From Buxus sempervirens (Eukaryota; Streptophyta; Magnoliopsida; Buxales; Buxaceae), in assembly GCA_947561395.2 (NCBI GenBank), contig OX387188.1, forward strand, positions 10,256,061-10,320,060: a stretch of DNA of 64,000 nt, in the 5' to 3' direction. The notes below the pieces were generated by a model. The model was not told the DNA's origin and did not search any database. It saw only the letters and a list, made by a program, of their open reading frames with translations. This document shows, in pieces, positions 1-41,991 of the stretch (its first letter is position 1; each line of letters starts with the position of its first letter). Position numbers and translations under genes: made by a program.

Positions 1-2405
1 AGACTTGAACAATTGCGTTAAATATATCAGAGTGCGGAAATAAATGACAAATCTTCAAGAAGCATCGAATTTAACCACCAATAATAATCAAATATTATTA
101 TATTCATAAAGTCTGGAAAGGTTCAACTAAATAAGACAAGCGATATCTAGTAAAGTTATGTAAATAAAATTTCCAATAATCCCTTAAATAACATCAAAAT
201 CCTCAAATAAAATAATCTAATGTCAATCCCTAAACAAAAAAAACTAAATCAGATCTCCATGTCCTCCTAGACCTACACAGGAATGAAATAATCCTCTTCC
301 TGCTAATTACAATAATCCCCTAGAGTCTTTACCCCAGCAACGTCCTCTCCAGGAATATCTGAAAACAAAACCGATAAATAATAATGTGAGAAACAACATC
401 TCAGTAAGTAGTCATGCAAATAGTTGACCGCAATAAAATATGCAATGTTTAATCAGATTAACCACAATACAATACAAAAAAAAGTATAATAAAAACAGAT
501 CAAATCCAATTGTTCACCTCATAGGACTCATGAAATAGTAAACCAGAGAATGATAGTAGACATGTGCCAATATGCTACCTAACCAAATTACAATGGACCA
601 GCCGCCCTTCAGTCTGCCTATTCGACACCAACGGAAGAACCCAACCATGAGTTAGCATGTACGGCCCAACCTATCCAGGAGTAGGTAACGTAGCAACTGA
701 TCTGTCCAGGAGCGGTACCACCCTCGAGGTGATGGAATGCCTATGACACAGAATTCAAACCCCTCTAATAAACATTTCACTTACTAGCTATTCTATGGAT
801 CCATATAACTGCTAAGCCCACCCAACAGTGGAAAAGCATACCAAGGAATGGACATACTTCTCAATAACATCCACAAATACAGAACCTTATCTATATACCA
901 ATAACCAAATCTGACCTGCGAAAAATAAGAAAACAGGCACTAGCCTTGTCACAACTATGACCCAAAAAAACAAAATCGAATGCACCAAGTCATATGTCCA
1001 AACTCCAGGTTTCAATGGGCAAATATGTCCTGCATGTGTATCGACTCCATCGATGCACCAAATACCTTCATATCACCCTAATACAAGTGTATTAACTCAC
1101 AAAAACAACTTTGGTTTGAAATAGAATCATTTGGAACAACGGTATCAAGTAAAAGTGCTTCTTTGGAAACATCTATCCAAAATCTTTATAAAATTGAGTT
1201 TTAAACATCCGCCAACGCAAACAATTCCCAAGTACCATAAACTTAATGGTACATAGCTAAATTTGGATAAAAACACTTCCGTAGTGAAAACTAGGTTGAA
1301 AGATAACTTTTCAAAAATCTAACAAACAGGGCGCTCGAACGGCCTAAAAATTTGGTCTTTTCAGGGTTGGTCGCTCGATGGATCGCACGAGCGACTGTTC
1401 AGGCGTCAATTCAATCTGGAAAAATTGCTGTCGGGTTCTAAAAAAATACAAAGGGCGCTCGAGCGACTACTCGGGCAGCCCAATACGAGAAAATCCGAAC
1501 TTTTGCGAAATTCCATAAAAATTCCACAACTCAATATCCAATGCATCAAATCCACTCTAAATCATTCTAAAACACTTTAAAAACATGTTAGAACAATTTC
1601 CAACAAATAAATCATCATAAATCACGCAAGAAACTCATCAAACCTCCGGATAATCATGGATATCGAAGAAACACGAAAATATTTTTGTGCAAGTTTAAAG
1701 GGACTACTTACCTGGTTTTTAGGAACTAAAACCTCTCCTAAAAGCTCTAAGATATCACGACAAATATGCTCCAACAATCTCACAATGCCTTGATCTCGTC
1801 TGGTTCAAAAAATCACTCCTTTATAACTCTTAAACATGCTTAAACTCACAAAACAAAAACTATTTTCTATCTTATCTTTTACCTGAGTTTTTGAACGAAA
1901 ATCCTCTCTTTTACTTTTGAAAGATTAGCTCCAAAGGTTGTTTAGGGTTAGGTTTTTTATCACAAGAAGCAAATAGAAGAAACAAGAGAATACAAGGGAC
2001 ATGCGGCTGTTCTCTTTGTGTTGGCCGTGCATAACTCATGCATATAGCTAGGTTATTTTAATTGTTTTAAAGCCTTTTACTTAAATACCCTCCCTTCATT
2101 AAACCAATTTACAATCAAGCCTTTAAGCTTAAACCAACTAATTCCGGGTCAACCCACTTCCTCTCTAGGTTCGACCAACTCCCTTAATTCCTTATTTATT
2201 TTATTTTTAATTAGCTCTTACTAATATAATCTGAGTAATAATAATAGCTAAATTTCTCCCTATTTTAAACTTAAAATTCTCACCTTAAATTAGCTTTCCA
2301 AGTTCTCCTCCGGGTTGAACCAATATCTCATCTCCTGCATATTTTTAACTCCATTAGTTTATTTAATAATTAGTTTTATTTATTACTTAAATCTGGGATT
2401 TTACA
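1..2405 (-). repeat. 3' LTR of the Tekay-like element (partial)
   Basis: This aligns base for base, with scattered differences, to 33383-35648 plus 41997-42179. About 82 bp are missing at the window edge. On the minus strand the LTR starts TGTAAAATCC at 2405, just after a polypurine tract. It holds a cluster of GCTCGAGCG-like motifs at about 1328-1490, a GTAAGT-type donor at 1711-1710 and a TTTTCAG acceptor at 360-359. The two LTRs differ more from each other than the three LTRs of the inserted array do, so this element is older. No gene is seen here. Confidence 0.88.
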
Positions 2406-2963
2406 TCCTCCCCTCCTAAAAATAAATTTCGTCCTCGAAATTTTACCTCGAGATTCCTCAAATAAAGACGGGTACTTCTTCTTCATTTCAGATTCCAACT
2501 CCCATGTGGCTTCTTCCACTACATAACTCTGCCACAACACCTTAACAAGTGGAATCACCTTCATAGGTTGGATCTGCTCACGTCTGTCTAATATTTGCAC
2601 TGGATGCTCCTCATAAGTCAAATCCTCACGTATGACCAAAGGCTCGTAGTCAATGATATGACTAGGGTCATGCACATATCGCCTTAGCATCGACACATGG
2701 AACACATCGTGAACTGCTCCAAATGAAGATGGCAATGCTAAGCGGTACGCCACTGGTCCCACTGTACCAATAATCTCAAAAGGTCCTACAAATCTGGGGG
2801 AAAGCTTTCCTTTCTTGCTGAACCTTTTTATACCATAGAAAAGAGATACCTTAATGAATACTCTATCACCAACCTCAAATTTCAGATCTCGCCGCCTAGT
2901 ATCTGCATAACTCTTCTGGCAACTTTGAGCTGCCAATAATCTCTGCTTGATCAATTTCACCAA
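2376..2963 (-). pseudogene. Integrase C-terminus and chromodomain, Tekay-like
   Basis: The 195-residue reading frame covers the end of integrase. The GKLSPRFVGPFEI block (about residues 52-64) is the usual GPF/Y-type module, followed by HVSMLRRYVHDPSH (about 88-101). A chromodomain-like tail ends in VLWQSYVVEEATWELE (about 142-157). In chromoviruses this tail guides integration toward heterochromatin. The frame runs on through the polypurine tract and stops inside the LTR. It is out of frame with the upstream integrase piece at 2957-3883, so it is a broken remnant. Confidence 0.85.
2406..2420 (-). other. Polypurine tract of the Tekay-like element
   Basis: Read on the minus strand, TTTAGGAGGGGAGGA sits directly against the TG start of the 3' LTR. 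This is the expected place and composition for the plus-strand primer site. Confidence 0.8.
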
Positions 2964-3883
2964 ATCAAAACTGTTCTACACATACTAAGACCCAAATACT
3001 GCCTTTCACCAATTTCCTCCCAACAGACTGGTGATCTACATGCTCTACCATACAATGCTTCATACGATGCCATCTGAATGCTCACCTGATAACTATTATT
3101 GTAGGTGAACTCTACCAATGGTACGTGCTTACTCCAATTACCTCCCCAATCAAGGACACAACATCGTAACATATCCTCAAGTGTCTGAATGGTCCTCTCT
3201 GACTGCCCATCAGTCTGAGGATGGTAACTTGTACTAAACTTCAACTCTGTACCCATGGCCTTCTGGAAAGACTCCCAGAACTAAGATGTGAATCTAGGAT
3301 CACGATCCGAAACAATGGATACTGGTATCCCATGCAATCTCACTATCTCCTGCACATACAGTTCTACTAGTGCATTAAGCGGTTGGTTCATCCTGATAGG
3401 CAAAAAGTGAGCTGATTTAGTCAAACGGTCCACTATCACCCATATTGCATCATGCCCCTTTGGAGAAAGAGGAAATCCACTCACAAAATCCATGGTGATG
3501 TGCTCCAATTTCCACTCTGGAATAGGAAGGGGCTGAAGCAACCCTGCTGGTCTCATGTGCTCTACCTTGACCTGTTGACACACCAAGCACTTAGCCACAT
3601 ATTCTGCTATATCCTTCCTCATTCCTAACCACCAATATACTACCCTCAAATTTCTATACATCTTAGTACTGCCGGGATGCACTGCATACTTTGATTTGTG
3701 GGCATCTACCATAATCACTGCCTTAATATCCTCATCAGCTAGTACACAAATGCGACCTTGGAATCTCACTAATCCATCCCTATCAATAAAGTCTCTGACA
3801 GTCTCAGAACCCTCACTCAACAATTTCCTGGTAGCAGTCAACTCTAGATCTGTCAATTGACTCACCCTGATCCTTTGAATCAA
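2957..3883 (-). pseudogene. Integrase (zinc-binding and catalytic core), broken
   Basis: Two adjacent frames (3883-3281, then 3256-2957) together cover the HHCC zinc-binding region, with HPGS and CLVC visible. They also cover the DDE core: the first Asp in ITMDFVSGFP, the second in VSDRDPRFTS, and the Glu in DGQSERTIQ. The pieces are separated by a stop or frameshift at about 3257-3280, and another break separates them from RNase H at about 3884-3979. All three catalytic residues are still readable, but no single frame carries them. Confidence 0.88.
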
Positions 3884-3979
3884 ATCAGGCTCTACCTAAA
3901 CTCTGGCTACTCGGATAACTCCCTCTTGAGGTAACCGGAACTCTTCCTGCCAATCAAAAATTGCATCTACAAGGCTACA

Positions 3980-4440
3980 CTAACTAGCCATAAAAGTAGT
4001 TAAAGTAGCAATGGAAGTCTCGTCAGTTGCGCCTTTACGACTCAAGGCATCTGCGACTACATTCACCTTGCCTGGATGGTACTGTAGTGTAAATATGAAA
4101 TCTTTTAATAGATCCATCCATCTCCTCTGCCTCATGTTGAGATCCCTCCGGGAAAATATGTATCTCAAACTCTTATGATCTGAGAAAATCTCAAACTCAA
4201 CCCCGTATAAGTAATGCCTCCATATCTTCAATGCGAAGACTATGGCAGCCAACTCCAAGTCGTGGGTGGGGTAATTCTTCTCATGAGGTTTTAATAAATG
4301 GGAAGTATATGCTACAACCCAACCCTATTGCATCAACACACAACCCAAACCAATCCTGGATGCATCACAATAGACAGCAAAAGGCTCATCCATAGATGGT
4401 ACAATCAACACTAGGGTCGTGGTAAGTCTTTGCTTCAACT
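3980..4440 (-). pseudogene. RNase H domain, broken
   Basis: The longest open piece (4258-3980) reads [17 protein letters not shown], then [11 protein letters not shown] and [10 protein letters not shown]. This is the second half of a Ty3-type RNase H, including the Asp of SDHKSL. The first half lies upstream to about 4440 and shows FAVYCDASRIGLGCVLMQ. It is followed by an in-frame TAG, where an acidic or polar residue normally precedes the VVAY segment. The domain is therefore interrupted at least once. Confidence 0.85.
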
Positions 4441-4490
4441 ACTGAAAACTCTGCTCACACTTGTCATCCCACTTAAATGGAACTACTTTC

Positions 4491-5457
4491 TTAGTTAAAT
4501 TGGACAACGGTGATGCTATATTTGGAAAAGCCCTCAATAAATTGGCGATAATATCCAGCCATGCCAAGGAAACTGCGGATCTCTGTCACTATGGTAGGTT
4601 TAGGCCAATCTGCAACTGCTTGGACTTTGGCAGGGTCCACAGAAATACCTTCACCTGAGATAATGTGACCAAGGAAAAAGATCTGCCTTAGCCAAAACTG
4701 GCACTTACTAAACTTGGCATATAACCGATGATCTCTCCAAGTATGGAGTACTACTTTCAAATGTCCAACATGGTCCTTCTAAGTCTTGGAGTATACCAAA
4801 ATATCATCGATGAAAACTAGCACAAAGTTATCCAGATATTGGTGGAAGACTCGATTCATGATATCTATGAAAACTGCGGGGGCATTAGTCAACCCAAACG
4901 GCATGACTAGAAACTCATAGTGCCCATACCGAGTCTGAAATGCTGTCTTCTCTATGTCTTTTTCAGCCACTCTTAACTGATGATAGCCTGATCTCAAATC
5001 AACCTTGGAAAACCAAGCTTCGCATCTCAATTGATCAAACAAGTTGTTGATCCTAGGCAAAGGGTACTGGGTACTTGTTCTTAACCGTAACTTGGTTAAG
5101 CTGCCTATAATCGATGCACACGCGCATACTACCATCCTTCTTTGGCACAAAAAGAACTGGTGCATCCCACGGTGACATGCTGGGTCTAATAAATCCCTTC
5201 TCCAAAAGCTCATCTATTTGCTTCCTTAATTCATCTTGCTCAGGTTTTGCCAACCTGTAAGGTGGCTTGGACACAGGAGTCGTACCAGGCTGAAGCTGGA
5301 TTCTGAAATCGACGGCTCTAACAGGTGGTAATCCTTGAAGACCGTCAAGAAATGCATCTGCGAATTCAGATACCACTGGCACATCAGAAAGATCAACGGT
5401 GTCACTCCTAGTCTCCTCTACTGCCATCGAAGCAACTAACCCAATCTGACTATCCAA
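4491..5457 (-). pseudogene. Reverse transcriptase, broken
   Basis: Three overlapping frames cover RT. The first, 5457-5053, has the fingers ([21 protein letters not shown] and [11 protein letters not shown]). The second, 5213-4779, has palm motifs ([22 protein letters not shown]) and the catalytic FIDDILVYS. The third, 4760-4491, has the thumb or connection ([23 protein letters not shown]). The catalytic Asp pair is kept, but at least two frameshifts break the domain. The first frame also carries linker residues between protease and RT. Confidence 0.9.
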
Positions 5458-5484: not shown

Positions 5485-5593
5485 CTACTCAGGCTTACTA
5501 ACTATAACTATCCCCTTATGATAGTTGATGGTGACATAGTGTTGGAACAACCAATCTATACCCAATATCACATCAAATCCGCTGAACTCCAGC
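5485..5593 (-). pseudogene. C-terminal piece of the Tekay protease
   Basis: The minus-strand reading up to the insertion point gives LEFSGFDVILGIDWLFQHY, the conserved end of Ty3-type aspartic proteases (ILG-DWL). The N-terminal half is at 31871-32140, more than 26 kb away, because the gag-only array inserted between them. Codons upstream of 5593 in this frame come from the inserted LTR and do not belong to the protease. Confidence 0.85.
5589..5593. repeat. Target site duplication CCAGC, left copy
   Basis: CCAGC sits directly before the TGTAGACACC start of the first LTR. The same five bases follow the TCTCACA end of the third LTR at 31866-31870. A 5-bp duplication is standard for Ty3 integrases. 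No such duplication is present at the internal LTR borders. Confidence 0.9.
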
Positions 5594-6040
5594 TGTAGAC
5601 ACCGAAAAATTGCACGATTTTTGATAAATCTTGAAGGAGAGAAATAATTTATCGAATTTTCAATTCTTAGCATTGGGTTTAAGATCCTTAACCCATTTGA
5701 ATCCAAAGCCGCAAAGGAAAAGGCCCGAATTCAATCTTTTATGCAAAGTCAAACTTTTTCGGGTTGAATTTTGTTGACTTTTGACCCCAGAAAATGAAAT
5801 ATTTTTTAAAAGCAAGATTTGAAGATAAATTTTCCCGGTAATCAGGTTTTTAGCAATGTTATTGCATAAATGAATTTTTTGAGATTTTTAATCTTGACGA
5901 ATACCTTGGTATTAACATGTTGAATCTTTTTACCGGACCTGAAAAATCGGAATTTAGCCTGGAACTGGAAAGTTGACTTTTTATTCACTTGGAATTTGGG
6001 TCTGGAAATATTTTTAATGGATTCAAATGGGGGGGTGTTT

Positions 6041-6124
6041 GCTTATTTACATGTAATATCTTAAGTAAATGGAGATTAAAAAATACGAGGACATTTACTT
6101 AAACGATATTACATGTAAATAAGC
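6041..6124. repeat. U3 inverted repeat, arms of about 31 and 33 bp
   Basis: The left arm at 6041-6071 starts GCTTATTTACATGTAATATC. Its reverse complement lies at 6092-6124, with a 2-base indel in the middle and a 20-bp loop. The same structure is present at 17737-17820 and 29425-29508. It lies about 520 bp upstream of the TATA box, so it would be in U3. The sequence supports a stable fold; any function is unknown. Confidence 0.85.
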
Positions 6125-6180
6125 CTGGCCTGTGCAGCTAAGGCTCAAAACCAACCAAAAGTGTGCTGACCGTGGTATAT

Positions 6181-6435
6181 GTGCGGTTTTTGAGAATTTG
6201 GTCTGAACCGCACTGCATGTACGGTTGCAACCGCATACACAGCACGGTTGATGTTCATGCTTGTTGCGTGAGCTGCCACGTGGCTTCCAGAAGCTTCGGC
6301 CGTTGAGACACGTCGACAGCAATCATAGCGAGCGTAACTGAATTGAACCGTCCTGTATGTGCGGTTGAGATGAATTTGCATAGAAACCGCACATATAGGA
6401 CGGTTCTGTAGAAACCGCACTGAGTATACGGTTTT
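6181..6435. promoter_or_regulatory. AACCGC/GCGGTT motif cluster with a 22-bp inverted repeat
   Basis: The cluster carries many copies of GTGCGGTT and AACCGCAC in both orientations. The clearest pair is 6345-6366 against 6385-6406: 22-bp arms with one mismatch that would still pair as G.U in RNA. A perfect CGGTTGCAACCG palindrome is also inside. Because it lies 200-450 bp upstream of the TATA box it could be an enhancer or protein-binding array. Similar motifs return in the leader at 10093-10181. The regulatory role is inferred. Confidence 0.6.
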
Positions 6436-6634
6436 GGCTGTTTCGTGCATTTGCGAAAAGGCTCGATCTCTGAGCCTTATTTACGCACATTACCTCTCTC
6501 TCAGGGACTTGAATTCCCTATTTCACCCTCCGAAACTTGCTGAATTACTCCAATTCAAGCCTTGGAGGAGAATTAGAATAATCTAGAAGGCTTTTTTGGC
6601 CTACCCTTGGGACTCTTCTACCCTTGGCTTGGCC

Positions 6635-6642
6635 TATAAATA
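6635..6642 (+). promoter_or_regulatory. TATA box of the LTR
   Basis: TATAAATA in the context GGCCTATAAATAG is the best TATA match in the LTR. Transcription would be expected to start about 30 bases downstream, near 6665-6672, which would put the U3/R border there. Identical boxes lie at 18331 and 30019. Confidence 0.7.
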
Positions 6643-8483
6643 GAAGGGTCCTCCTCTTGCAAATGGCTGAGAATTTGAAGCTTGGAGGCTCTGGAAGAAG
6701 AGGGAAAACTCTGCTGGATTGCTACCTCAAGTGTTCAAGCTACCAAAGGTAAAGCTCCATTTGATTTTCTTGTTTCCTCTTTACATTTAACTCTCCACTT
6801 CTACCTTTCTGTAGTGTAAAGCCAGTGTGTGATTGTTTGCAAGCCCCAAACCTCTTCCAAAGTACCTGGGAATCCTCTCTAGCCGTAAAACGTGAAGAGA
6901 GAGCCTTGGGAAAAGGAAGGTGGAATGGATCCTTTAGGCTTAGAACCTACATGTGATGAAGAGCATGTTTATTGGTTATTTTGAACCTATGGTTGCTTCT
7001 ATGATCTGTTTTTGTATTTACCTATGGAGAAGATGCACGAATCCATGCTCTCAATAGCAATGGATTCCAACCTTCTCCTAGAAATGTGATTTTCCACACC
7101 TCTTCACACACTTTTCACTATTTTCATCAAATAGGCTAGATCTTGGATTCTCCATGCTCAATATGGAAAATCTGAGATCTCTGGCCTTAGAATGAATTTC
7201 TAGGACTTCATGAGTTGTTTTTCATGATTTCAAGTTATTTTGGTCGAATCCACTTGCACACATGCACTGGTTTCACACTTTTACTCAAGGTTTTTCAAAA
7301 CAGGGCAGCATCTGTACCATGTCTTAGAATGCTCATAACTTCGTCCTCCGGATGAATTTTTGAGTGATTCCAAAGACATGTGATAGATGGATATGCCTAG
7401 TTTATATCTGGAAATTTTCACTCACTTTCATGTAGCCAATTTTTGACACCATCTGTTCAAAGTTTGTAAGTCAGTTCAGCCCAGATTGCTGAACTTGCCG
7501 CTTTGATGGTGCACCGTTTGCTCAGTTTTAATCCGTTTTGTGTGATTCTAATTTCTGAGTTTTCCTTGAGAAGTCTATTTTCATTTCCAATTAGTTTTAG
7601 CAGATTTTGATCTGTTTTGTGCCTTGGGTGTTCAATTGACTCAGAGATGCTCGCTGGCATAGTCCAGAGCTAATCTGTGGTCTTCTAGGCCTGTTCAAGA
7701 GAGCACACAAGTCACATCCGGATTGAGTTTGGTGTGAGATTTATCTCTTTGGAAAGGTGGCACAACATACTTCCCCCATACCAATTTTCATGAATTTTTA
7801 TTGAGCCAAACTCCACGAATAGGACTTTGAAAATGCCTACTCATCACTTTTTTTGAGTTATAAACAGCAAATTTCATATGTGGAGTTCTCTCTCATTTTA
7901 AGTCGGATTGAGCTGAAGTTTTTACCGCATACTCTATTATATACCAGTTTTCAAATGGCTTTGGTTTCATTGGATTTGGATTTAAATTGAGTGAGTTATG
8001 GTTAATCGAAGCTTTCAAGTTCTCATAATCTGATTTTTCCAGATTTGCCTTGAATTGGTTTTGCTTCAATTTTCACCTTGATTTTTATTCACTCATGAGG
8101 TTCTAAGAGGTGATATATCCATGAAGAGAGTCTAAACTCATTGGACTACTCATGTGGAATAATCACGCACATTTTGCTTATTTTAATCAATCCTTGTCCT
8201 TTTTTTTTATTAGCAAACAATCCTTAGCATAAGCAAGCATGTGGCAACCGTCTTAGACGGATGAGTGGGGGTGCCTAACACCTTCCCCCGCTCATAAATA
8301 ATTCCCCTTACCCAATCTCTGGATTTTTCCATATATTAGAGCTACTTTGGCTCTATTTGGCTTTTATGAACCCTTTGGTATCCATTCACACCCTTAAGAT
8401 GGATGGTGGCGACTCTTATTTTTATCGATCCCCGCGTGACGATATCGGAAGTCATCCGAGATGACGAATCCATGTCTCACAAC

Positions 8484-8501
8484 TGGCGACTCTGCTGGGG
8501 A
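8484..8501 (+). other. Primer binding site, tRNA-Arg-like (copy 1)
   Basis: TGGCGACTCTGCTGGGGA starts two bases after the LTR end. It resembles the complement of the 3' end of plant tRNA-Arg(ACG), with differences in the middle. Arg primer sites are a known mark of Ogre/Tat elements. The tRNA assignment is from memory of the family. Confidence 0.75.
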
Positions 8502-10740
8502 TATAGTGGAATTGAGCCATGTCTTTTGCTTGCTTATTCTTTGTTTGATTTTATTGATTGTTTGTTGTTTGGAGTGATTGTAATAAGCATGCTGATTTGA
8601 ATGCTTCTATATCTAGAGAATGTGAGACCTTAGGAAATAGGGCATGAGATGTGTGATGCTTTGGTTATGCTCAAAACCATGTTAAGAGACCTAGCTAGTT
8701 TTACCATGCTAGGCTACCATGTTTATATGATGAGCATGTTTTGATTAGAATTTTATTGTCATTGAGCATGTGATCAGGATTTTTAGGGAGATATTTTGAA
8801 TATGTCAAAAGCATGCTCACCATAATTAAATGCTATTTGTTGTATGATATGATGACATGCTTTCATGTTTGTATGATTGTGGGAATGCATGTTTAGATGG
8901 CGCATGCTAGGCTTTCTTTTTATTAATTGGATGTTATCATGTTTGTTTGCTTCAAATGTGATTTCTATATCATGCCTTGGTGGTTTTTGGATTGTGCTTG
9001 CATGGCTACGAAAAGAGAGTGGCAAGGGTGGGACGTTGTGATGAATGTGACCCACATTTTAAATGCACTTGAGCACCTTTTTTATTTTTTACACAGCCTA
9101 CCTATCATCTATAGGAAGTTGAACAAGAATGTGTGTAGCTTGGCGCACCGAGGTCGTTACTTCGGAAAGCGAAAGTGAAAACATTCACCTTAGAAGCTTT
9201 GAGCCAATGATGTGATGACATGGTGGATCTAGAATTCTGGTCATACACTAGGCTTGAGCTCTAAGTTGCCAATAAGCCAAAACCCAAAACCCCCACGCTT
9301 GAAGGTGGAGAAACACGTTTTTGGCCAAAGTAAACCAAATGCGATGGGAAAAGGGTTTGTAATGAGGGAAGGCCGTTTTGCATGGCTCAGGTGACCCAAG
9401 GTATGATATAGATACCATTTTGAAGGTAAACATGAGGTACCAAGGTAATGTTAATTTCATTTTTATGATTGCCTTCGTATCATGCAAAGCCAAGTTCATG
9501 GTGTCCATTTTGTTGGGATTTTGTTTTTCCCAAAGAATATCTGTATCCTAGGATTGGTGTAGCCCATAGGAAGAGTTTTAACTCTTCTTAGAGGTCATTC
9601 TACCCAAATGCCCATAGGAGGCAACCCAAAGTCCAAGATCCATGCATTGGGTGTCCATTTTGGTGGGAGCCTAGGCCCTCCTTTGTTTAAATATTACTAA
9701 TCCTCTTCTTTGCAGGAAGGTTGCATGGGAATGACACCCAGGAGCTGCGTAGAGGGCATCCTCTAATTTTAGTTTAGGATTTTTCTTCCTCTTTTCAAGC
9801 CCAAAGAGGCTAAATTGTAATTTTATTTTGATTCATGCCCCTTGAAGGCCAAGTTGTATTGTAATTCATTTCCTTTATTGTAAGGGATCTTTTTGTGCAT
9901 ATGTGTGGTCCCCTCATACAATCTCATGAAATTCATGGTATAAGTGGGTTTTTAGTACCATTTGATGTGTCAAATGCCCAATTTGGGGTAATCTGGAAGC
10001 CACCCAATGGTGAACACTGTGTTTGGACAAGTAACCAAGCTAATAAAACCAGTCGGAAAAAGAAACAATTCGAAAATCTGATTTCTGGTTTAAAACCGTC
10101 CTGAATATGCGGTTTCCTGCATTTTTGATGCAACCGTAGAATTTATGCGGTTTGGGCCAAACCGTTCTGAATGCACGGTTTTAAGCCGAAATTCTGTTCC
10201 AGCCTTGCTTATCAAACATTTCTGGGTCCTTTCATCCCTAAGTCATATAAGCAAATGGGCAGGGGTTCCAAATAAGATAAATGGCATTTAAACCATTCCA
10301 AATCCACCAAAATCAAGAGATTAAGGTCATTTTGAACATATTCACCTAAATTGAACAAATTAACTCAACTCAAAGGTGAAAATGATAAAATAAAAGTTGG
10401 TTCAGACCAAAAAACAGGTCAAGTACCTCAATTTGGGGGTTAAGTCCACATTGGGCTCTTTTTGTCCAGTTTGAACACTTAACCCATCTTAAATGAAGTA
10501 AATGATTAAAAGAGAATTGGTTCAAATAACCAACCTAATCATACTTCAATCTCAAGAATTGAACTTGGAAATCACAATAAGTTTCCAAAACATGTTAAGC
10601 TTAAAGTGTAATACAATTCATGAAAGGAAGCTCAACTCTTTTAAAATGGGGCAAATTCCAATCAAAAATCAATCTTTAAGAAATCTTTAATCATAAAGTA
10701 TTCAAACTTTTAAGATTTCTTCCAAAGAGCAATTGGGTCA
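8502..10740 (+). other. First part of the gag-only leader, non-coding
   Basis: About 2.2 kb follow the primer site with only short ORFs (83-90 codons) on either strand. None shows a recognised domain, and no upstream ORF of the kind found in Ogre is seen. The stretch 8640-8930 is rich in ATGC words (GCATG, CATGC) and may be mildly repetitive. The only structured part I recognise is the AACCG cluster at 10093-10181. Confidence 0.6.
10093..10181 (+). repeat. Three AAACCG...CGGTTT stem-loops in the leader
   Basis: Three successive units begin AACCG or AAACCG and end CGGTT or CGGTTT, 20-23 bases apart, at 10093-10115, 10132-10152 and 10159-10181. The spacers are related (CTGAATATG, GAATTTATG, CTGAATGCA). 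The motif matches the U3 cluster at 6181-6435. Copy 2 lies at 21789-21877. Confidence 0.6.
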
Positions 10741-12271
10741 CTTGGAAACCTTTGAATTCCAAGCAAATAATCATTTAAAAATCAAGTGAAAGGAAAATTT
10801 TAAATAAAACATCTCCTTGAAAGCAATTTGAGTCTCTTTTTAACTCAAAAACACCTAAGGGAAAATCAAAAATATTTTAGGCATCTGAAAGCCTTGGAAT
10901 TTCAGAAAATCAACTCATAGGACCCTGGAAGCCTGAAATTCCAGATTTTTTCCAAAATCTTCATAGGCCTTCTAAAGCCTGAATTTAGAAACTCATAGGA
11001 CTCCTGGAAGCCTGAAATTCCAGATTTTTTCCAAAATCTTCATAGGCCTTCTAAAGCCTAAATTTAGAAACTCATAGGACCCTGGAAGCCTGAAATTCCA
11101 GATTTTTTCCAAAATCTTCATAGGCCTTCTAAAGCCTAAATTTAGAAACTCATAGGACCCTGGAAGCCTGAAATTCCAGATTTTTTCCAAAATCTTCATA
11201 GGCCTTCTAAAGCCTGAATTTAGAAACTCATAGGACTCCTGGAAGCCTGAAATTCCAGATTTTTTCCAAAATCTTCATAGGCCTTCTAAAGCCTAAATTT
11301 AGAAACTCATAGGACCCTGGAAGCCTGAAATTCCAGAATTTTTCAAAATCTTCATAGGCCTTCTAAAGCCTGAATTTAGAAAATCATAGGCCCCTGAAAG
11401 CCTGCGTAATTTCGGGAGGTTGTGGAAGCCTTAATTCCAAAGCATAAGCCCTTGGAAGCTTGCGTAATTCCAAGTTGTGATTTGTCTAAGGACTTTTACC
11501 TTAGGCATCTCATTTTTGTGGGACGTTGGAAGCCCTAGAATATTCCAGCATTGGTGGGTCTTTTTCGTACCAACCAATTCATAAGCCCTTGGAAGCTTGC
11601 GTAATTCCAAGTTGTGATTTGTCTAAGGGCTTTTACCTTAGGTATCTCATTTTTGTGGGATGTTGGAAGCCCTAGAATATTCCAACAAATCCTTTGCACG
11701 GTCTTTTTCATACCAACCAATTCATAGGCCTCTAGAAGCCTGAGTAATTCTAGAAACCTTCTTGGGCCGTCTATAAGCCTCTGAATTATAGACACAATCC
11801 TTTGGGCCGTCTAAAAGCCTCTGAATTTTAGACACAACCTTTTTGGGCCGTCTATAAGCCTCTGAATTATAGACACATATTTTGGGCCGTCTAAAAGCCT
11901 CTGAATTTTAGACACTACCTTTTTGGGCCATTTGAAAGCCTCTGAATTTCAAACATCATTTCTTTTGGGCCGTCTAAAAGCCTCTGAATTTTAGACACTA
12001 CCTTTTTGGGCCATTTGAAAGCCTCTGAATTTCAAACATCATTTCTTCTGGGCCGTCTAAAAGCCTCCGAATTTTAGACACCTGCATAAGCCTCTAGAAG
12101 CTTGCGTGATTCTAGAACCCACTCATAGGCCTTCTAAAGCCTGAATTTAGAAAAATCATAGGATTTCTGAAAGCCTTTAAATTGCAGAACTCATATCTTA
12201 GGCCGTCTAAAAGCCTCTGAATTTTAGACATTTCTCATTCTTTGGGACCTTTTGGAAGCCCTTAAATTCCA
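10741..12271 (+). repeat. Array of about 34 covarying stem-loops in the leader (copy 1)
   Basis: Short stems of 5-8 bp enclose loops that mostly start GCCT, GCTT or GCCC and end in AA. The innermost pairs are nearly always AA:TT, and the outer pairs differ between units while both arms change together. Examples are CTTGGAA/TTCCAAG (10741, 11451, 11588), TTCTAAA/TTTAGAA (10970, 12132), GTCTAAAA/TTTTAGAC (11809, 11889, 11972), GTCTATAA/TTATAGAC (11769, 11850), TTTGAAA/TTTCAAA (11931, 12014), TCTAGAA/TTCTAGA (11731, 12093) and GTTGGAA/TTCCAAC (11662). Some units pair only through G.U (11393, 11525). CATAGG, CATAAG or GGGCCG often precedes the stem. No protein reading explains this. Confidence 0.88.
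10914..11383 (+). repeat. Six tandem 78/79-bp units inside the stem-loop array
   Basis: Units start CTCATAGGA at 10914, 10992, 11071, 11149, 11227 and 11306. Each holds two stem-loops, one with CTGGAA/TTCCAG arms and one with TTCTAAA/TTTAGAA arms. Copies differ by a few bases. The 68-codon minus-strand ORF here is a by-product of the repeat period. The copy 2 array spans 22610-23079. Confidence 0.9.
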
Positions 12272-12551
12272 TATTTTTTGGATGGTCGTTTGTACCAACC
12301 ATTTCTCTTCACAAGGTCAATTTCGACCAAAACAAAAAAAAGAAAAAGTTTAAAAATAAGAAAAAACAAAAGAAAAAAATTGTAATTCAGACTCATGTTC
12401 ACCCAAACATGCATACATGCATTCTTGAAAGTGTGTGAGTTTAACTTGAAATGTGCACTAATTGTGTTTCTTTTCTTTTCTTTCAAAAGGTTTTCGGCTC
12501 CTACCTGCAACCATTGCTCCCAGGCGCTCTCAGAGACTAAGATCTGCCACC

Positions 12552-17289: not shown

Positions 17290-20177
17290 TGTAGACACCG
17301 AAAAATTGCACGATTTTTGATAAATCTTGAAGGAGAGAAATATTTTATCGAATTTTCAATTCTTAGCATTGGGTTTAAGATCCTTAACCCATTTGAATCC
17401 AAAGCCGCAAAGGAAAAGGCCCGAATTCAATCTTTTATGCAAAGTCAAACTTTTTCGGGTTGAATTTTGTTGACTTTTGACCCCAGAAAATGAAATATTT
17501 TTTAAAAGCAAGATTTGAAGATAAATTTTCCCGGTAATCAGGTTTTTAGCAATGTTATTGCATAAATGAATTTTTTGAGATTTTTAATCTTGACGAATAC
17601 CTTGGTATTAACATGTTGAATCTTTTTACCGGACCTGAAAAATCGGAATTTAGCCTGGAACTGGAAAGTTGACTTTTTATTCACTTGGAATTTGGGTCTG
17701 GAAATATTTTTAATGGATTCAAATGGGGGGGTGTTTGCTTATTTACATGTAATATCTTAAGTAAATGGAGATTAAAAAATACGAGGACATTTACTTAAAC
17801 GATATTACATGTAAATAAGCCTGGCCTGTGCAGCTAAGGCTCAAAACCAACCAAAAGTGTGCTGACCGTGGTATATGTGCGGTTTTTGAGAATTTGGTCT
17901 GAACCGCACTGCATGTACGGTTGCAACCGCATACACAGCACGGTTGATGTTCATGCTTGTTGCGTGAGCTGCCACGTGGCTTCCAGAAGCTTCGGCCGTT
18001 GAGACACGTCGACAGCAATCATAGCGAGCGTAACTGAATTGAACCGTCCTGTATGTGCGGTTGAGATGAATTTGCATAGAAACCGCACATATAGGACGGT
18101 TCTGTAGAAACCGCACTGAGTATACGGTTTTGGCTGTTTCGTGCATTTGCGAAAAGGCTCGATCTCTGAGCCTTATTTACGCACATTACCTCTCTCTCAG
18201 GGACTTGAATTCCCTATTTCACCCTCCGAAACTTGCTGAATTACTCCAATTCAAGCCTTGGAGGAGAATTAGAATAATCTAGAAGGCTTTTTTGGCCTAC
18301 CCTTGGGACTCTTCTACCCTTGGCTTGGCCTATAAATAGAAGGGTCCTCCTCTTGCAAATGGCTGAGAATTTGAAGCTTGGAGGCTCTGGAAGAAGAGGG
18401 AAAACTCTGCTGGATTGCTACCTCAAGTGTTCAAGCTACCAAAGGTAAAGCTCCATTTGATTTTCTTGTTTCCTCTTTACATTTAACTCTCCACTTCTAC
18501 CTTTCTGTAGTGTAAAGCCAGTGTGTGATTGTTTGCAAGCCCCAAACCTCTTCCAAAGTACCTGGGAATCCTCTCTAGCCGTAAAACGTGAAGAGAGAGC
18601 CTTGGGAAAAGGAAGGTGGAATGGATCCTTTAGGCTTAGAACCTACATGTGATGAAGAGCATGTTTATTGGTTATTTTGAACCTATGGTTGCTTCTATGA
18701 TCTGTTTTTGTATTTACCTATGGAGAAGATGCACGAATCCATGCTCTCAATAGCAATGGATTCCAACCTTCTCCTAGAAATGTGATTTTCCACACCTCTT
18801 CACACACTTTTCACTATTTTCATCAAATAGGCTAGATCTTGGATTCTCCATGCTCAATATGGAAAATCTGAGATCTCTGGCCTTAGAATGAATTTCTAGG
18901 ACTTCATGAGTTGTTTTTCATGATTTCAAGTTATTTTGGTCGAATCCACTTGCACACATGCACTGGTTTCACACTTTTACTCAAGGTTTTTCAAAACAGG
19001 GCAGCATCTGTACCATGTCTTAGAATGCTCATAACTTCGTCCTCCGGATGAATTTTTGAGTGATTCCAAAGACATGTGATAGATGGATATGCCTAGTTTA
19101 TATCTGGAAATTTTCACTCACTTTCATGTAGCCAATTTTTGACACCATCTGTTCAAAGTTTGTAAGTCAGTTCAGCCCAGATTGCTGAACTTGCCGCTTT
19201 GATGGTGCACCGTTTGCTCAGTTTTAATCCGTTTTGTGTGATTCTAATTTCTGAGTTTTCCTTGAGAAGTCTATTTTCATTTCCAATTAGTTTTAGCAGA
19301 TTTTGATCTGTTTTGTGCCTTGGGTGTTCAATTGACTCAGAGATGCTCGCTGGCATAGTCCAGAGCTAATCTGTGGTCTTCTAGGCCTGTTCAAGAGAGC
19401 ACACAAGTCACATCCGGATTGAGTTTGGTGTGAGATTTATCTCTTTGGAAAGGTGGCACAACATACTTCCCCCATACCAATTTTCATGAATTTTTATTGA
19501 GCCAAACTCCACGAATAGGACTTTGAAAATGCCTACTCATCACTTTTTCTGAGTTATAAACAGCAAATTTCATATGTGGATTTCTCTCTCATTTTAAGTC
19601 GGATTGAGCTGAATTTTTTACCGCATACTCTATTATATACTAGTTTTCAAATGGCTTTGGTTTCATTGGATTTGGATTTAAATTGAGTGAGTTATGGTTA
19701 ATCGAAGCTTTCAAGTTCTCATAATCTGATTTTTCCAGATTTGCCTTGAATTGGTTTTGCTTCAATTTTCACCTTGATTTTTATTCACTCATGAGGTTCT
19801 AAGAGGTGATATATCCATGAAGAGAGTCTAAACTCATTGGACTACTCATGTGGAATAATCACGCACATTTTGCTTATTTTAATCAATCCTTGTCCTTTTT
19901 TTTTATTAGCAAACAATCCTTAGCATAAGCAAGCATGTGGCAACCGTCTTAGACGGATGAGTGGGGGTGCCTAACACCTTCCCCCGCTCATAAATAATTC
20001 CCCTTACCCAATCTCTGGATTTTTCCATATATTAGAGCTACTTTGGCTCTATTTGGCTTTTATGAACCCTTTGGTATCCATTCACACCCTTAAGATGGAT
20101 GGTGGCGACTCTTATTTTTATCGATCCCCGCGTGACGATATCGGAAGTCATCCGAGATGACGAATCCATGTCTCACA
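17290..20177 (+). repeat. LTR 2 (central) of the gag-only array
   Basis: This has the same TGTAGACACC start, TCTCACA end and 2888-bp length as LTR 1. It serves as 3' LTR of the first unit and 5' LTR of the second. By eye it differs from LTR 3 at only about two bases (near 19289 and 19294). No target duplication surrounds it. Confidence 0.95.
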
Positions 20178-20197: not shown

Positions 20198-22436
20198 TAT
20201 AGTGGAATTGAGCCATGTCTTTTGCTTGCTTATTCTTTGTTTGATTTTATTGATTGTTTGTTGTTTGGAGTGATTGTAATAAGCATGCTGATTTGAATGC
20301 TTCTATATCTAGAGAATGTGAGACCTTAGGAAATAGGGCATGAGATGTGTGATGCTTTGGTTATGCTCAAAACCATGTTAAGAGACCTAGCTAGTTTTAC
20401 CATGCTAGGCTACCATGTTTATATGATGAGCATGTTTTGATTAGAATTTTATTGTCATTGAGCATGTGATCAGGATTTTTAGGGAGATATTTTGAATATG
20501 TCAAAAGCATGCTCACCATAATTAAATGCTATTTGTTGTATGATATGATGACATGCTTTCATGTTTGTATGATTGTGGGAATGCATGTTTAGATGGCGCA
20601 TGCTAGGCTTTCTTTTTATTAATTGGATGTTATCATGTTTGTTTGCTTCAAATGTGATTTCTATATCATGCCTTGGTGGTTTTTGGATTGTGCTTGCATG
20701 GCTACGAAAAGAGAGTGGCAAGGGTGGGACGTTGTGATGAATGTGACCCACATTTTAAATGCACTTGAGCACCTTTTTTATTTTTTACACAGCCTACCTA
20801 TCATCTATAGGAAGTTGAACAAGAATGTGTGTAGCTTGGCGCACCGAGGTCGTTACTTCGGAAAGCGAAAGTGAAAACATTCACCTTAGAAGCTTTGAGC
20901 CAATGATGTGATGACATGGTGGATCTAGAATTCTGGTCATACACTAGGCTTGAGCTCTAAGTTGCCAATAAGCCAAAACCCAAAACCCCCACGCTTGAAG
21001 GTGGAGAAACACGTTTTTGGCCAAAGTAAACCAAATGCGATGGGAAAAGGGTTTGTAATGAGGGAAGGCCGTTTTGCATGGCTCAGGTGACCCAAGGTAT
21101 GATATAGATACCATTTTGAAGGTAAACATGAGGTACCAAGGTAATGTTAATTTCATTTTTATGATTGCCTTCGTATCATGCAAAGCCAAGTTCATGGTGT
21201 CCATTTTGTTGGGATTTTGTTTTTCCCAAAGAATATCTGTATCCTAGGATTGGTGTAGCCCATAGGAAGAGTTTTAACTCTTCTTAGAGGTCATTCTACC
21301 CAAATGCCCATAGGAGGCAACCCAAAGTCCAAGATCCATGCATTGGGTGTCCATTTTGGTGGGAGCCTAGGCCCTCCTTTGTTTAAATATTACTAATCCT
21401 CTTCTTTGCAGGAAGGTTGCATGGGAATGACACCCAGGAGCTGCGTAGAGGGCATCCTCTAATTTTAGTTTAGGATTTTTCTTCCTCTTTTCAAGCCCAA
21501 AGAGGCTAAATTGTAATTTTATTTTGATTCATGCCCCTTGAAGGCCAAGTTGTATTGTAATTCATTTCCTTTATTGTAAGGGATCTTTTTGTGCATATGT
21601 GTGGTCCCCTCATACAATCTCATGAAATTCATGGTATAAGTGGGTTTTTAGTACCATTTGATGTGTCAAATGCCCAATTTGGGGTAATCTGGAAGCCACC
21701 CAATGGTGAACACTGTGTTTGGACAAGTAACCAAGCTAATAAAACCAGTCGGAAAAAGAAACAATTCGAAAATCTGATTTCTGGTTTAAAACCGTCCTGA
21801 ATATGCGGTTTCCTGCATTTTTGATGCAACCGTAGAATTTATGCGGTTTGGGCCAAACCGTTCTGAATGCACGGTTTTAAGCCGAAATTCTGTTCCAGCC
21901 TTGCTTATCAAACATTTCTGGGTCCTTTCATCCCTAAGTCATATAAGCAAATGGGCAGGGGTTCCAAATAAGATAAATGGCATTTAAACCATTCCAAATC
22001 CACCAAAATCAAGAGATTAAGGTCATTTTGAACATATTCACCTAAATTGAACAAATTAACTCAACTCAAAGGTGAAAATGATAAAATAAAAGTTGGTTCA
22101 GACCAAAAAACAGGTCAAGTACCTCAATTTGGGGGTTAAGTCCACATTGGGCTCTTTTTGTCCAGTTTGAACACTTAACCCATCTTAAATGAAGTAAATG
22201 ATTAAAAGAGAATTGGTTCAAATAACCAACCTAATCATACTTCAATCTCAAGAATTGAACTTGGAAATCACAATAAGTTTCCAAAACATGTTAAGCTTAA
22301 AGTGTAATACAATTCATGAAAGGAAGCTCAACTCTTTTAAAATGGGGCAAATTCCAATCAAAAATCAATCTTTAAGAAATCTTTAATCATAAAGTATTCA
22401 AACTTTTAAGATTTCTTCCAAAGAGCAATTGGGTCA
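20198..22436 (+). other. First part of the leader, copy 2
   Basis: This repeats 8502-10740 almost without change. It contains the AACCG stem-loop trio at 21789-21877. No coding sequence is recognised. Confidence 0.6.
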
Positions 22437-23967
22437 CTTGGAAACCTTTGAATTCCAAGCAAATAATCATTTAAAAATCAAGTGAAAGGAAAATTTTAAA
22501 TAAAACATCTCCTTGAAAGCAATTTGAGTCTCTTTTTAACTCAAAAACACCTAAGGGAAAATCAAAAATATTTTAGGCATCTGAAAGCCTTGGAATTTCA
22601 GAAAATCAACTCATAGGACCCTGGAAGCCTGAAATTCCAGATTTTTTCCAAAATCTTCATAGGCCTTCTAAAGCCTGAATTTAGAAACTCATAGGACTCC
22701 TGGAAGCCTGAAATTCCAGATTTTTTCCAAAATCTTCATAGGCCTTCTAAAGCCTAAATTTAGAAACTCATAGGACCCTGGAAGCCTGAAATTCCAGATT
22801 TTTTCCAAAATCTTCATAGGCCTTCTAAAGCCTAAATTTAGAAACTCATAGGACCCTGGAAGCCTGAAATTCCAGATTTTTTCCAAAATCTTCATAGGCC
22901 TTCTAAAGCCTGAATTTAGAAACTCATAGGACTCCTGGAAGCCTGAAATTCCAGATTTTTTCCAAAATCTTCATAGGCCTTCTAAAGCCTAAATTTAGAA
23001 ACTCATAGGACCCTGGAAGCCTGAAATTCCAGAATTTTTCAAAATCTTCATAGGCCTTCTAAAGCCTGAATTTAGAAAATCATAGGCCCCTGAAAGCCTG
23101 CGTAATTTCGGGAGGTTGTGGAAGCCTTAATTCCAAAGCATAAGCCCTTGGAAGCTTGCGTAATTCCAAGTTGTGATTTGTCTAAGGACTTTTACCTTAG
23201 GCATCTCATTTTTGTGGGACGTTGGAAGCCCTAGAATATTCCAGCATTGGTGGGTCTTTTTCGTACCAACCAATTCATAAGCCCTTGGAAGCTTGCGTAA
23301 TTCCAAGTTGTGATTTGTCTAAGGGCTTTTACCTTAGGTATCTCATTTTTGTGGGATGTTGGAAGCCCTAGAATATTCCAACAAATCCTTTGCACGGTCT
23401 TTTTCATACCAACCAATTCATAGGCCTCTAGAAGCCTGAGTAATTCTAGAAACCTTCTTGGGCCGTCTATAAGCCTCTGAATTATAGACACAATCCTTTG
23501 GGCCGTCTAAAAGCCTCTGAATTTTAGACACAACCTTTTTGGGCCGTCTATAAGCCTCTGAATTATAGACACATATTTTGGGCCGTCTAAAAGCCTCTGA
23601 ATTTTAGACACTACCTTTTTGGGCCATTTGAAAGCCTCTGAATTTCAAACATCATTTCTTTTGGGCCGTCTAAAAGCCTCTGAATTTTAGACACTACCTT
23701 TTTGGGCCATTTGAAAGCCTCTGAATTTCAAACATCATTTCTTCTGGGCCGTCTAAAAGCCTCCGAATTTTAGACACCTGCATAAGCCTCTAGAAGCTTG
23801 CGTGATTCTAGAACCCACTCATAGGCCTTCTAAAGCCTGAATTTAGAAAAATCATAGGATTTCTGAAAGCCTTTAAATTGCAGAACTCATATCTTAGGCC
23901 GTCTAAAAGCCTCTAAATTTTAGACATTTCTCATTCTTTGGGACCTTTTGGAAGCCCTTAAATTCCA
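22437..23967 (+). repeat. Covarying stem-loop array, copy 2
   Basis: This is the second copy of the array at 10741-12271. The one change I noticed (23915, G to A) falls in a loop and leaves the GTCTAAAA/TTTTAGAC stem intact. Confidence 0.88.
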
Positions 23968-28977: not shown

Positions 28978-31865
28978 TGTAGACACCGAAAAATTGCACG
29001 ATTTTTGATAAATCTTGAAGGAGAGAAATATTTTATCGAATTTTCAATTCTTAGCATTGGGTTTAAGATCCTTAACCCATTTGAATCCAAAGCCGCAAAG
29101 GAAAAGGCCCGAATTCAATCTTTTATGCAAAGTCAAACTTTTTCGGGTTGAATTTTGTTGACTTTTGACCCCAGAAAATGAAATATTTTTTAAAAGCAAG
29201 ATTTGAAGATAAATTTTCCCGGTAATCAGGTTTTTAGCAATGTTATTGCATAAATGAATTTTTTGAGATTTTTAATCTTGACGAATACCTTGGTATTAAC
29301 ATGTTGAATCTTTTTACCGGACCTGAAAAATCGGAATTTAGCCTGGAACTGGAAAGTTGACTTTTTATTCACTTGGAATTTGGGTCTGGAAATATTTTTA
29401 ATGGATTCAAATGGGGGGGTGTTTGCTTATTTACATGTAATATCTTAAGTAAATGGAGATTAAAAAATACGAGGACATTTACTTAAACGATATTACATGT
29501 AAATAAGCCTGGCCTGTGCAGCTAAGGCTCAAAACCAACCAAAAGTGTGCTGACCGTGGTATATGTGCGGTTTTTGAGAATTTGGTCTGAACCGCACTGC
29601 ATGTACGGTTGCAACCGCATACACAGCACGGTTGATGTTCATGCTTGTTGCGTGAGCTGCCACGTGGCTTCCAGAAGCTTCGGCCGTTGAGACACGTCGA
29701 CAGCAATCATAGCGAGCGTAACTGAATTGAACCGTCCTGTATGTGCGGTTGAGATGAATTTGCATAGAAACCGCACATATAGGACGGTTCTGTAGAAACC
29801 GCACTGAGTATACGGTTTTGGCTGTTTCGTGCATTTGCGAAAAGGCTCGATCTCTGAGCCTTATTTACGCACATTACCTCTCTCTCAGGGACTTGAATTC
29901 CCTATTTCACCCTCCGAAACTTGCTGAATTACTCCAATTCAAGCCTTGGAGGAGAATTAGAATAATCTAGAAGGCTTTTTTGGCCTACCCTTGGGACTCT
30001 TCTACCCTTGGCTTGGCCTATAAATAGAAGGGTCCTCCTCTTGCAAATGGCTGAGAATTTGAAGCTTGGAGGCTCTGGAAGAAGAGGGAAAACTCTGCTG
30101 GATTGCTACCTCAAGTGTTCAAGCTACCAAAGGTAAAGCTCCATTTGATTTTCTTGTTTCCTCTTTACATTTAACTCTCCACTTCTACCTTTCTGTAGTG
30201 TAAAGCCAGTGTGTGATTGTTTGCAAGCCCCAAACCTCTTCCAAAGTACCTGGGAATCCTCTCTAGCCGTAAAACGTGAAGAGAGAGCCTTGGGAAAAGG
30301 AAGGTGGAATGGATCCTTTAGGCTTAGAACCTACATGTGATGAAGAGCATGTTTATTGGTTATTTTGAACCTATGGTTGCTTCTATGATCTGTTTTTGTA
30401 TTTACCTATGGAGAAGATGCACGAATCCATGCTCTCAATAGCAATGGATTCCAACCTTCTCCTAGAAATGTGATTTTCCACACCTCTTCACACACTTTTC
30501 ACTATTTTCATCAAATAGGCTAGATCTTGGATTCTCCATGCTCAATATGGAAAATCTGAGATCTCTGGCCTTAGAATGAATTTCTAGGACTTCATGAGTT
30601 GTTTTTCATGATTTCAAGTTATTTTGGTCGAATCCACTTGCACACATGCACTGGTTTCACACTTTTACTCAAGGTTTTTCAAAACAGGGCAGCATCTGTA
30701 CCATGTCTTAGAATGCTCATAACTTCGTCCTCCGGATGAATTTTTGAGTGATTCCAAAGACATGTGATAGATGGATATGCCTAGTTTATATCTGGAAATT
30801 TTCACTCACTTTCATGTAGCCAATTTTTGACACCATCTGTTCAAAGTTTGTAAGTCAGTTCAGCCCAGATTGCTGAACTTGCCGCTTTGATGGTGCACCG
30901 TTTGCTCAGTTTTAATCCGTTTTGTGTGATTCTAATTTCTGAGTTTTCCTTGAGAAGTCTATTTTCATTTCCAATTGGTTTCAGCAGATTTTGATCTGTT
31001 TTGTGCCTTGGGTGTTCAATTGACTCAGAGATGCTCGCTGGCATAGTCCAGAGCTAATCTGTGGTCTTCTAGGCCTGTTCAAGAGAGCACACAAGTCACA
31101 TCCGGATTGAGTTTGGTGTGAGATTTATCTCTTTGGAAAGGTGGCACAACATACTTCCCCCATACCAATTTTCATGAATTTTTATTGAGCCAAACTCCAC
31201 GAATAGGACTTTGAAAATGCCTACTCATCACTTTTTCTGAGTTATAAACAGCAAATTTCATATGTGGATTTCTCTCTCATTTTAAGTCGGATTGAGCTGA
31301 ATTTTTTACCGCATACTCTATTATATACTAGTTTTCAAATGGCTTTGGTTTCATTGGATTTGGATTTAAATTGAGTGAGTTATGGTTAATCGAAGCTTTC
31401 AAGTTCTCATAATCTGATTTTTCCAGATTTGCCTTGAATTGGTTTTGCTTCAATTTTCACCTTGATTTTTATTCACTCATGAGGTTCTAAGAGGTGATAT
31501 ATCCATGAAGAGAGTCTAAACTCATTGGACTACTCATGTGGAATAATCACGCACATTTTGCTTATTTTAATCAATCCTTGTCCTTTTTTTTTATTAGCAA
31601 ACAATCCTTAGCATAAGCAAGCATGTGGCAACCGTCTTAGACGGATGAGTGGGGGTGCCTAACACCTTCCCCCGCTCATAAATAATTCCCCTTACCCAAT
31701 CTCTGGATTTTTCCATATATTAGAGCTACTTTGGCTCTATTTGGCTTTTATGAACCCTTTGGTATCCATTCACACCCTTAAGATGGATGGTGGCGACTCT
31801 TATTTTTATCGATCCCCGCGTGACGATATCGGAAGTCATCCGAGATGACGAATCCATGTCTCACA
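28978..31865 (+). repeat. LTR 3 of the gag-only array
   Basis: This 2888-bp LTR ends TCTCACA and is followed at once by CCAGC (31866-31870), the right target duplication, and then by Tekay protease sequence. No primer site follows it, as expected for a terminal 3' LTR. Confidence 0.95.
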
Positions 31866-31870
31866 CCAGC

Positions 31871-41500: not shown

Positions 41501-41991
41501 CTTTTTCTCTACCTTCTAATTCTCTACTAGTACTATACCAATTAAATCCCTCACTATCTAAATTCTTCTTTCTAGCTAATTTTCATGCATATTTAATTTT
41601 TTATTTTAAAATATTACTAAAATACCTCAAAGCTCCTCTTATTCTCAAATTTAAGGCTCCTTATCAACCATAATCACCAATATACCCTTTTTCCTACTTT
41701 TATGTCATAATTTGCTATTTTAATTTCAAACCTAACCCAAATTAAGTCTAGTTAAATATTTCAAATCTAATAATTATTTAATTACTCAATATATTAATTT
41801 AGCTAATTGGAAAATGACCAAAATACCCTTTCCTTGTAATTCCATATTTATCCTTTGGATCTTTTTCCAAAAATTCTCCTCTTTATTCCACACATCAATC
41901 TTGACCATATAATGCACTTGGATTAATACCTATTTTCTCCAATCCTTTATGTTTAATTTATTTTATTTTGAGGAAAATCCAAGGTTTTACA

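Follow-up and report, generated by a model that had tools for sequence, protein, structure and literature searches.

Tandem repeats whose units are H-type pseudoknots are known from the bacterial type III antitoxin RNAs ToxI and CptI, and CptI combines a one-base L1 with an A-rich loop over S1 (PMC4627078), much as units of the array described here are predicted to do (S1 and S2 being stems, L1 and L3 loops, in the order given below). The antitoxin RNAs are cut into units by their toxin, and the CptI studied has two genetic repeats (PMC4627078), whereas the present array comprises about 30 units in the leader of a plant retroelement. Consecutive pseudoknots in an RNA of plant cells form the upstream pseudoknot domain of TMV, but there they number three and lie in the 3' UTR (PMC4683447). 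A retrotransposon leader with a pseudoknot has been described for Ty1 (PMC8396678); that pseudoknot is single and long-range, unlike a tandem array of compact ones, and the likeness drawn here is one of layout. The repeated palindromic motifs of Sireviruses offer another parallel, being palindromes that occur in clusters and are conserved in non-coding sequence of plant LTR retrotransposons; they differ in their CGG-CCG core and in their location, close to env and, within the LTR, 5' of the TATA box, and were discussed as likely transcriptional elements (PMC2829016). TR-GAG elements carry two LTRs around a single gag ORF, as does the element studied here, but a leader array goes unmentioned in the parts of the TR-GAG description drawn on (PMC9784723), and the present array is also carried by autonomous elements.

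No such array is described in the titles and abstract openings of open-access papers on retrotransposon-leader pseudoknots and stem-loops, Ogre leaders and tandem pseudoknots, and Rfam gave no match in the window at gathering score. Tandem pseudoknots as such are already known from type III antitoxins and TMV RNA; as far as these sources extend, a retrotransposon leader array of about 30 units is new. To our knowledge, RNA selection by plant LTR retrotransposons and the exploitation of autonomous elements by gag-only ones are largely open questions, and an array of this length, with its numerous natural variants and its thousands of units across the genome, provides a covariation-rich RNA for the study of Gag recognition, leader translation and parasite-host competition.

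The tandem element and its hairpins

The window, the whole stretch of 64,000 nt that was analysed, is part of contig OX387188.1 of Buxus sempervirens (genome assembly 676.5 Mb). It contains a gag-only LTR retrotransposon at 5594-31865 with the organization LTR-internal-LTR-internal-LTR, that is, a tandem double element with three LTRs and two internal regions (Table 1). With the proteins of the outer element as probes, no match to reverse transcriptase (RT) or integrase was found in the internal region, and the LTRs, the target-site duplication and PF03732 show the organization of a TR-GAG element, two LTRs around an internal part with coding capacity for Gag alone. The array is located in the untranslated leader, its 3' end about 280 nt above the start of gag, which is the ORF adjoining it. 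The element is nested in another repeat, the minus-strand ORFs of which were interpreted as pol (2376-5457, left of the element) and gag (32250-32813, right of it). Further repeats in the window were a fragment at 42273-43011, about 71% like the LTR of the element and with no array adjoining in the part read, an inverted repeat with arms of about 0.8 kb that are 90% alike (41164-41960 and 43337-44132), and two tandem repeats related to each other, at 36166-36708 and 53913-54356, whose CACCGAGTACAC-like cores lie on opposite strands.

Table 1. Features of the tandem element and of its leader array (positions in the window)
Feature	Position	Strand	Remark
LTR 1	5594..8481	+	
LTR 2, shared middle LTR	17290..20177	+	
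LTR 3	28978..31865	+	
Target-site duplication CCAGC, 5 bases	5589-5593 and 31866-31870		flanks whole tandem element; one duplication
Presumed primer binding site	8484..8501	+	
Upstream leader	8482..10734	+	74 ATG
Array, 34 units, 19 distinct types	10735..12271	+	hairpins themselves 10741-12271
First unit	10735..10763	+	S1 GGGU/ACCU, S2 CUUGGAA/UUCCAAG
78-nt tandem block	10912..11404	+	CUGGAA and UUCUAAA units alternating; full-length matches elsewhere in genome 95-98% alike
Unit with compensated S1	11446..11474	+	S1 AAGC/GCUU
Unit with S1 GGG/CCC	11521..11549	+	S2 GUUGGAA/UUCCAGC (U.G)
Second AAGC/GCUU unit	11583..11611	+	duplicate of 11446 unit
About 41-nt tandem block	11764..12079	+	GGGC c GUCUAAAA GCCU cugaa UUUUAGAC and relatives
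AAGC/GCUU unit on different S2	12088..12116	+	S2 UCUAGAA/UUCUAGA
gag, 650 aa	12552..14504	+	Retrotrans_gag PF03732, domain match
Second array copy, tandem element	~22431..23967	+	one base different, 12219 G/A

The initial annotation of this DNA, the interpretation of which was partly supported overall, had proposed about 34 stem-loops with jointly varying arms, and both points were borne out. A hairpin finder blind to upstream pairing (5' arm ending in AA, 3' arm starting with TT, loop of 6-12) returned 36 hairpins in 10600-12330; those at 10689 and 11483 were dropped as being of another type, which left 34. With a stricter finder, 34 hairpins were counted in the array, against a mean of 4.12 (maximum 8) in 100 dinucleotide shuffles and of 3.09 (maximum 9) in 34 stretches of this length from elsewhere in the window. 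The number of units is inflated by recent duplication, and only 19 distinct types are present. Across these, 127 of 133 cells of the S2 arms are Watson-Crick pairs against a mean of 88.3, a value that none of 20,000 deals of the 3' arms reached. All six stem pairs that had been quoted are present, as is U.G pairing at 11393 and 11525, with a Watson-Crick counterpart at 11661. The second array, which had been cited as keeping the whole structure, does so except for a single base, but it was set aside as independent evidence because it is a tandem copy within the same element. When folded without pseudoknots, 11384-12271 gave a z-score of -6.0 (20 shuffles). Of eight units folded in this pseudoknot-free way, six had S2 as their best fold. 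A coding function for the array was rejected, the longest frame being just 93 aa and on the minus strand. Other hairpins, without S1 pairing, lie within the array at 11483-11507 and 11550-11578, for example UGUCUAAGG/CCUUAGGCA.

Predicted pairing of the loop with upstream bases

A constant GCC at the start of the loop, as previously noted, was not confirmed: the loop starts with GCC, GCU (3 units) or ACC (1 unit), and the changes follow the bases just upstream of the hairpin. In 33 of the 34 units, the loop start can pair with these bases to form an S1 of at least 3 bp (G.U counted, L1 of 0-4). The stem-loops are real, then, but as a description they are incomplete. A typical unit has the order S1a (3-5), L1 (1-4), S2a (5-8), S1b (3-5), L3 and S2b, with L3 short and usually A-rich. 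This order and these lengths look like those of a compact H-type pseudoknot, in which pairing of the loop with bases outside the hairpin may give two interleaved stems.

S1 occurs as AGGC/GCCU, AAGC/GCUU, GGGC/GCCU, GGGU/ACCU, GGG/CCC and AGG/CCU. Across the 19 types, its column 1 is A-U in 11, G.U in five and G-C in three; column 2 is G-C in 16, A-U in two and A.C in one; column 3 is G-C in 17, with one A.C and one C against C; and column 4 is C-G in 14, U-A in one, U.G in one and A against G in three. Cells were counted on anchored rows because a MAFFT alignment of 15 units, since discarded, misplaced S1. The two A.C cells come from rows 11525 and 12253, the former of which gains better pairing as GGG/CCC after a shift of register; for unit 12253, no S1 exists at any L1 of 0-4. 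In all, 64 of 76 S1 cells are Watson-Crick, as in only 2 of 20,000 arm shuffles, a figure that flatters the observed arrangement because L1 was preset at its best-pairing value. With L1 left free and the upstream bases shuffled among 21 distinct units, the Watson-Crick score was reached by 4 of 5000 shuffles, and the result was weaker (27 of 5000) when G.U was allowed.

The pairing also scores higher on the sense strand. The mean S1 score was 9.96 for the sense strand, 5.80 for the mirror-image pairing of the antisense strand and 2.87 for random 8-mers, and the sense score was the higher in 20 of 25 distinct units, with the reverse in two. A strict descriptor (S1 of 4 bp, L1 1-2, S2 of 6-8 bp, L3 2-7) matched the plus strand 46 times within the two arrays, compared with 19 times in the remaining window sequence; the minus strand had 28 matches over the whole window, five of them in the first array and six in the second.

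It might be argued that S2 is the functional fold and that S1 is a conserved motif which pairs by coincidence. We regard this as quite improbable, although S2 is the best fold of most units when pseudoknots are disallowed, and although a rough sum of energies, with a Dirks-Pierce penalty but no coaxial stacking, rated the knot as more stable than the best unknotted fold in 17 of 25 units but favoured the hairpin in eight (10925, 11004, 11423, 11525, 11661, 12093, 12165 and 12253, the CUGGAA type among them). S1 also has few states, and when each distinct combination of S1 and S2a among the first 100 places of a longer pattern was counted once, the association in column 2 was modest (p = 0.012). 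Coincidence sits poorly with columns 1, 2 and 4, which vary on both sides jointly, or with the genome as a whole, where column 2 in the frame CATARGCCNNNNNAAGCYTG was G-C in 1810 places, A-U in 1141, G.U in 69 and A.C in 24, that is, 2951 matched against 93 mismatched, a total that is not a number of events since copies share ancestry. The longer pattern gave 64 A-U, 31 G-C, 3 A.C and 2 G.U in its first 100 places, and among these AAGC/GCUU and AGGC/GCCU were both found on the S2 backgrounds CUUGG, UCUAG and CUUAG, which again argues against coincidence. A single kind of substitution, C to T with identical immediate neighbours, turns G-C into G.U when it falls on one strand and into A.C when it falls on the other; their origin being the same, the 69 G.U against 24 A.C suggest that pairing on the sense RNA has been favoured. 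In the 38 distinct classes listed, by contrast, S2 cells comprised 221 Watson-Crick, 8 G.U, 14 A.C and 23 others, so that S2 lacks a sense-strand bias there (14 A.C against 8 G.U). S2 was fully paired in only 15 of these classes, and its five variable columns paired in 145 of 190 cells, above all 5000 shuffles (mean 98.1).

Related arrays and selection on the stems

The block at 10900-11400 had at least 70 matches in the genome (40 of 617 candidates scored). By a lenient finder, which also takes a few strays, 28 stretches hold 17-39 hairpins each, the two of the window included and two others (L005 and L006) overlapping. Twelve copies were followed for 10 kb downstream, and gag was present in all. 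The array had been taken for a feature of gag-only elements, but 10 of the 12 encode gag, RT and integrase, all in one orientation, and their gag is 60-64% like that of the window (that of L040 in two pieces, 54 and 77%). Of the remaining two, L034 has gag only and is close to the window element (gag 92.5%), while in L035 the RT and integrase matches lie on the strand opposite to gag. One autonomous relative, L036, encodes gag and a G-patch, followed by RVT_1, RT_RNaseH, RVT_3 and rve in that order. The succession of RT, RNase H, second RNase H-like domain and integrase is a mark of the Tat/Ogre lineage, and L036 has a Tat/Ogre-like domain layout.

A search of the genome with gag (131 of 10252 candidates scored) found mostly sequences 79-82% alike. 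Four leaders of this group (L051, L053, L054 and L055) gave 30, 23, 28 and 32 sense against 9, 7, 9 and 10 antisense matches, and their arrays consist mostly of GGGC/GCCU units with UCUGAAA, GUCUAAAA or GUCUAUAA stems. L052 (gag 89%) gave 18 sense and 10 antisense matches and has a new compensated stem, UAAGGAA/UUCCUUA; L056, of the 82% gag group, matched the array sequence, and in L057 the array was absent. In other copies, only between about half and three quarters of the hairpins satisfied a lenient descriptor, and strand specificity judged by it was rejected as evidence, since close copies gave 9-33 sense against 7-20 antisense matches, near equal in many autonomous arrays. Outside this genome, a gag search of viral_contigs found no relatives and two unit patterns had no match; the 19 protein relatives recovered are all from plants, the best, among 8000 candidates scored, from Tetracentron (42% over 68%). 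Gag matches about 9.9 kb apart (G000:C10:18211051, 18220935 and 18230829) suggest tandem arrays of elements.

Constraint on the stems was examined in 7 of 10 upstream loci, with L041 and L048 (not collinear) and L045 (gag-only) left out. In 200-nt steps, identity to these seven autonomous copies was 77-93% over most of the LTR and leader, 95-98% over 10800-11399, 91.5% over 11400-11599 and 78% over 11600-11799. From about 11690 the window array is not collinear with the autonomous copies, and because they cannot be aligned there, constraint on the 3' part was checked against the gag-only copy L020 only. Over 10735-11549, divergence from the seven copies was 1.3% for S1, 1.8% for S2, 3.8% for L1, 6.3% for L3 and 8.1% for spacers, with 9.1% in the leader just upstream (10300-10734). 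S1 thus diverges as little as S2, a further argument against S1 as a motif that pairs by coincidence.

Differences between the window element and nine copies (of the 10 upstream loci) over 10735-11549 were divided into shared, found in two or more copies, and private, found in one. Shared differences affect 5 of the 378 sites in stems, as against 45 of the 322 in spacers; for private ones, which are mostly post-insertion, the numbers are 32 and 40 (p = 0.10). The shared to private contrast gave p = 4e-5 for all stems, 2e-4 for S2 and 1.0 for loops; for S1 alone (2:9 against 45:40) it was borderline (p = 0.051). Sites within repeats are partly non-independent and alignment of tandem repeats can err: of the shared stem sites, 11548 and 11549 have changes common to five or more copies with pairing kept, 11521 and 11522 appear to reflect a shifted alignment, and 10743 entered the shared class although the base differs between the two copies concerned. 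In a comparison of the complete array with that of L020, 19 of 708 stem sites and 40 of 572 spacer sites differ (p = 4e-4); 12 of the 16 changed pairs keep pairing and four lose it.

An array without function, in which a palindrome was duplicated in tandem and kept perfect by template switching or gene conversion, would account for the evident duplication of units, for the variable array length (17-39 hairpins) and for the three double changes against L020, all in one unit, which may be a unit swap. This seems highly improbable, as, within a repeat, divergence of the spacers is several times that of the stems (a contrast much weaker for private differences), repair of palindromes hardly explains S1, whose arms straddle S2a, and G.U exceeds A.C at S1 column 2. 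The earlier proposal of selection on RNA structure is therefore well supported, as judged from covariation and from the test of shared and private differences. Both stems appear to have been kept by selection while the elements were active, firmly so for S2, and for S1 alone with one borderline test.

Possible roles of the leader array

Our preferred reading, held tentatively, is that the array of 17-39 units belongs to the leader of a Tat/Ogre-like family, that many units can form pseudoknots and are under selection, and that the whole most likely serves as a multivalent binding site for Gag. Leader RNA would carry tandem units (S1 of 3-5 bp, L1 of 1-4 nt, S2 of 5-8 bp, short L3), many of them closing into compact H-type pseudoknots, and this series would present a protein, most likely Gag, with many weak sites on the genomic RNA, giving selective packaging. 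Gag-only elements would then compete for particles, with RT and integrase supplied by autonomous relatives that have the same array. Sites would become more numerous by tandem duplication, so that copy number and unit sequence could drift while each unit stayed foldable. Part of the LTR, the leader and the array are common to the gag-only element and its candidate autonomous relatives, and an array common to elements with and without RT and integrase fits a cis signal for RNA entering particles. Recognition of Ty1 RNA by Gag is aided in vitro by the 5' leader pseudoknot, although packaging was unaffected by point mutations in the stems of that pseudoknot (PMC8396678). That Gag is the ligand is purely what we infer, ranked first, with translation second; packaging and gag expression are inseparable here because no gag-less derivative occurs among the 12 followed copies. 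More doubtful is the wider idea of a novel type of retroelement RNA, in which some 30 interchangeable H-type pseudoknots, strung together at kilobase scale, would form a multivalent assembly scaffold, the shared currency of competition for particles between autonomous and gag-only elements.

An improbable alternative is a role in RNA stability or export, with serial pseudoknots blocking exonucleases or recruiting a host export or elongation factor. The three consecutive pseudoknots of the TMV domain bind eEF1A (PMC4683447), and a redundant chain of blocks would suit a variable copy number, but the Rfam families without a match in the window include the exonuclease-resistant RNAs.

The main rival to Gag binding is translation control, because the array is almost free of AUG below an AUG-rich leader; as internal entry, shunt or landing region, it might let ribosomes make gag below that leader. 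The array has one ATG in 1537 nt against 17.0 expected in shuffles, and the leader above it 74 in 2253 nt against 57.0. Counted by distinct 9-mers, the array still has one ATG against 9.1 expected, and one ATG against 37 CAT. Five other stretches, two of them whole loci and not trimmed arrays, had 0-6 ATG against 15.0-19.2 expected, and the short distance to gag also suits this role. The interval between array and gag, on the other hand, has five ATG (3.6 expected), about 30 pseudoknots would be expected to hinder scanning, and the scarcity of AUG may be inherited by chance because units were copied from few ancestors. We therefore consider translation control unlikely, if worth keeping in view beside Gag binding. 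Higher in the leader, 9000-9399 is a second highly conserved stretch, with 95-96.5% identity between gag-only and autonomous elements.
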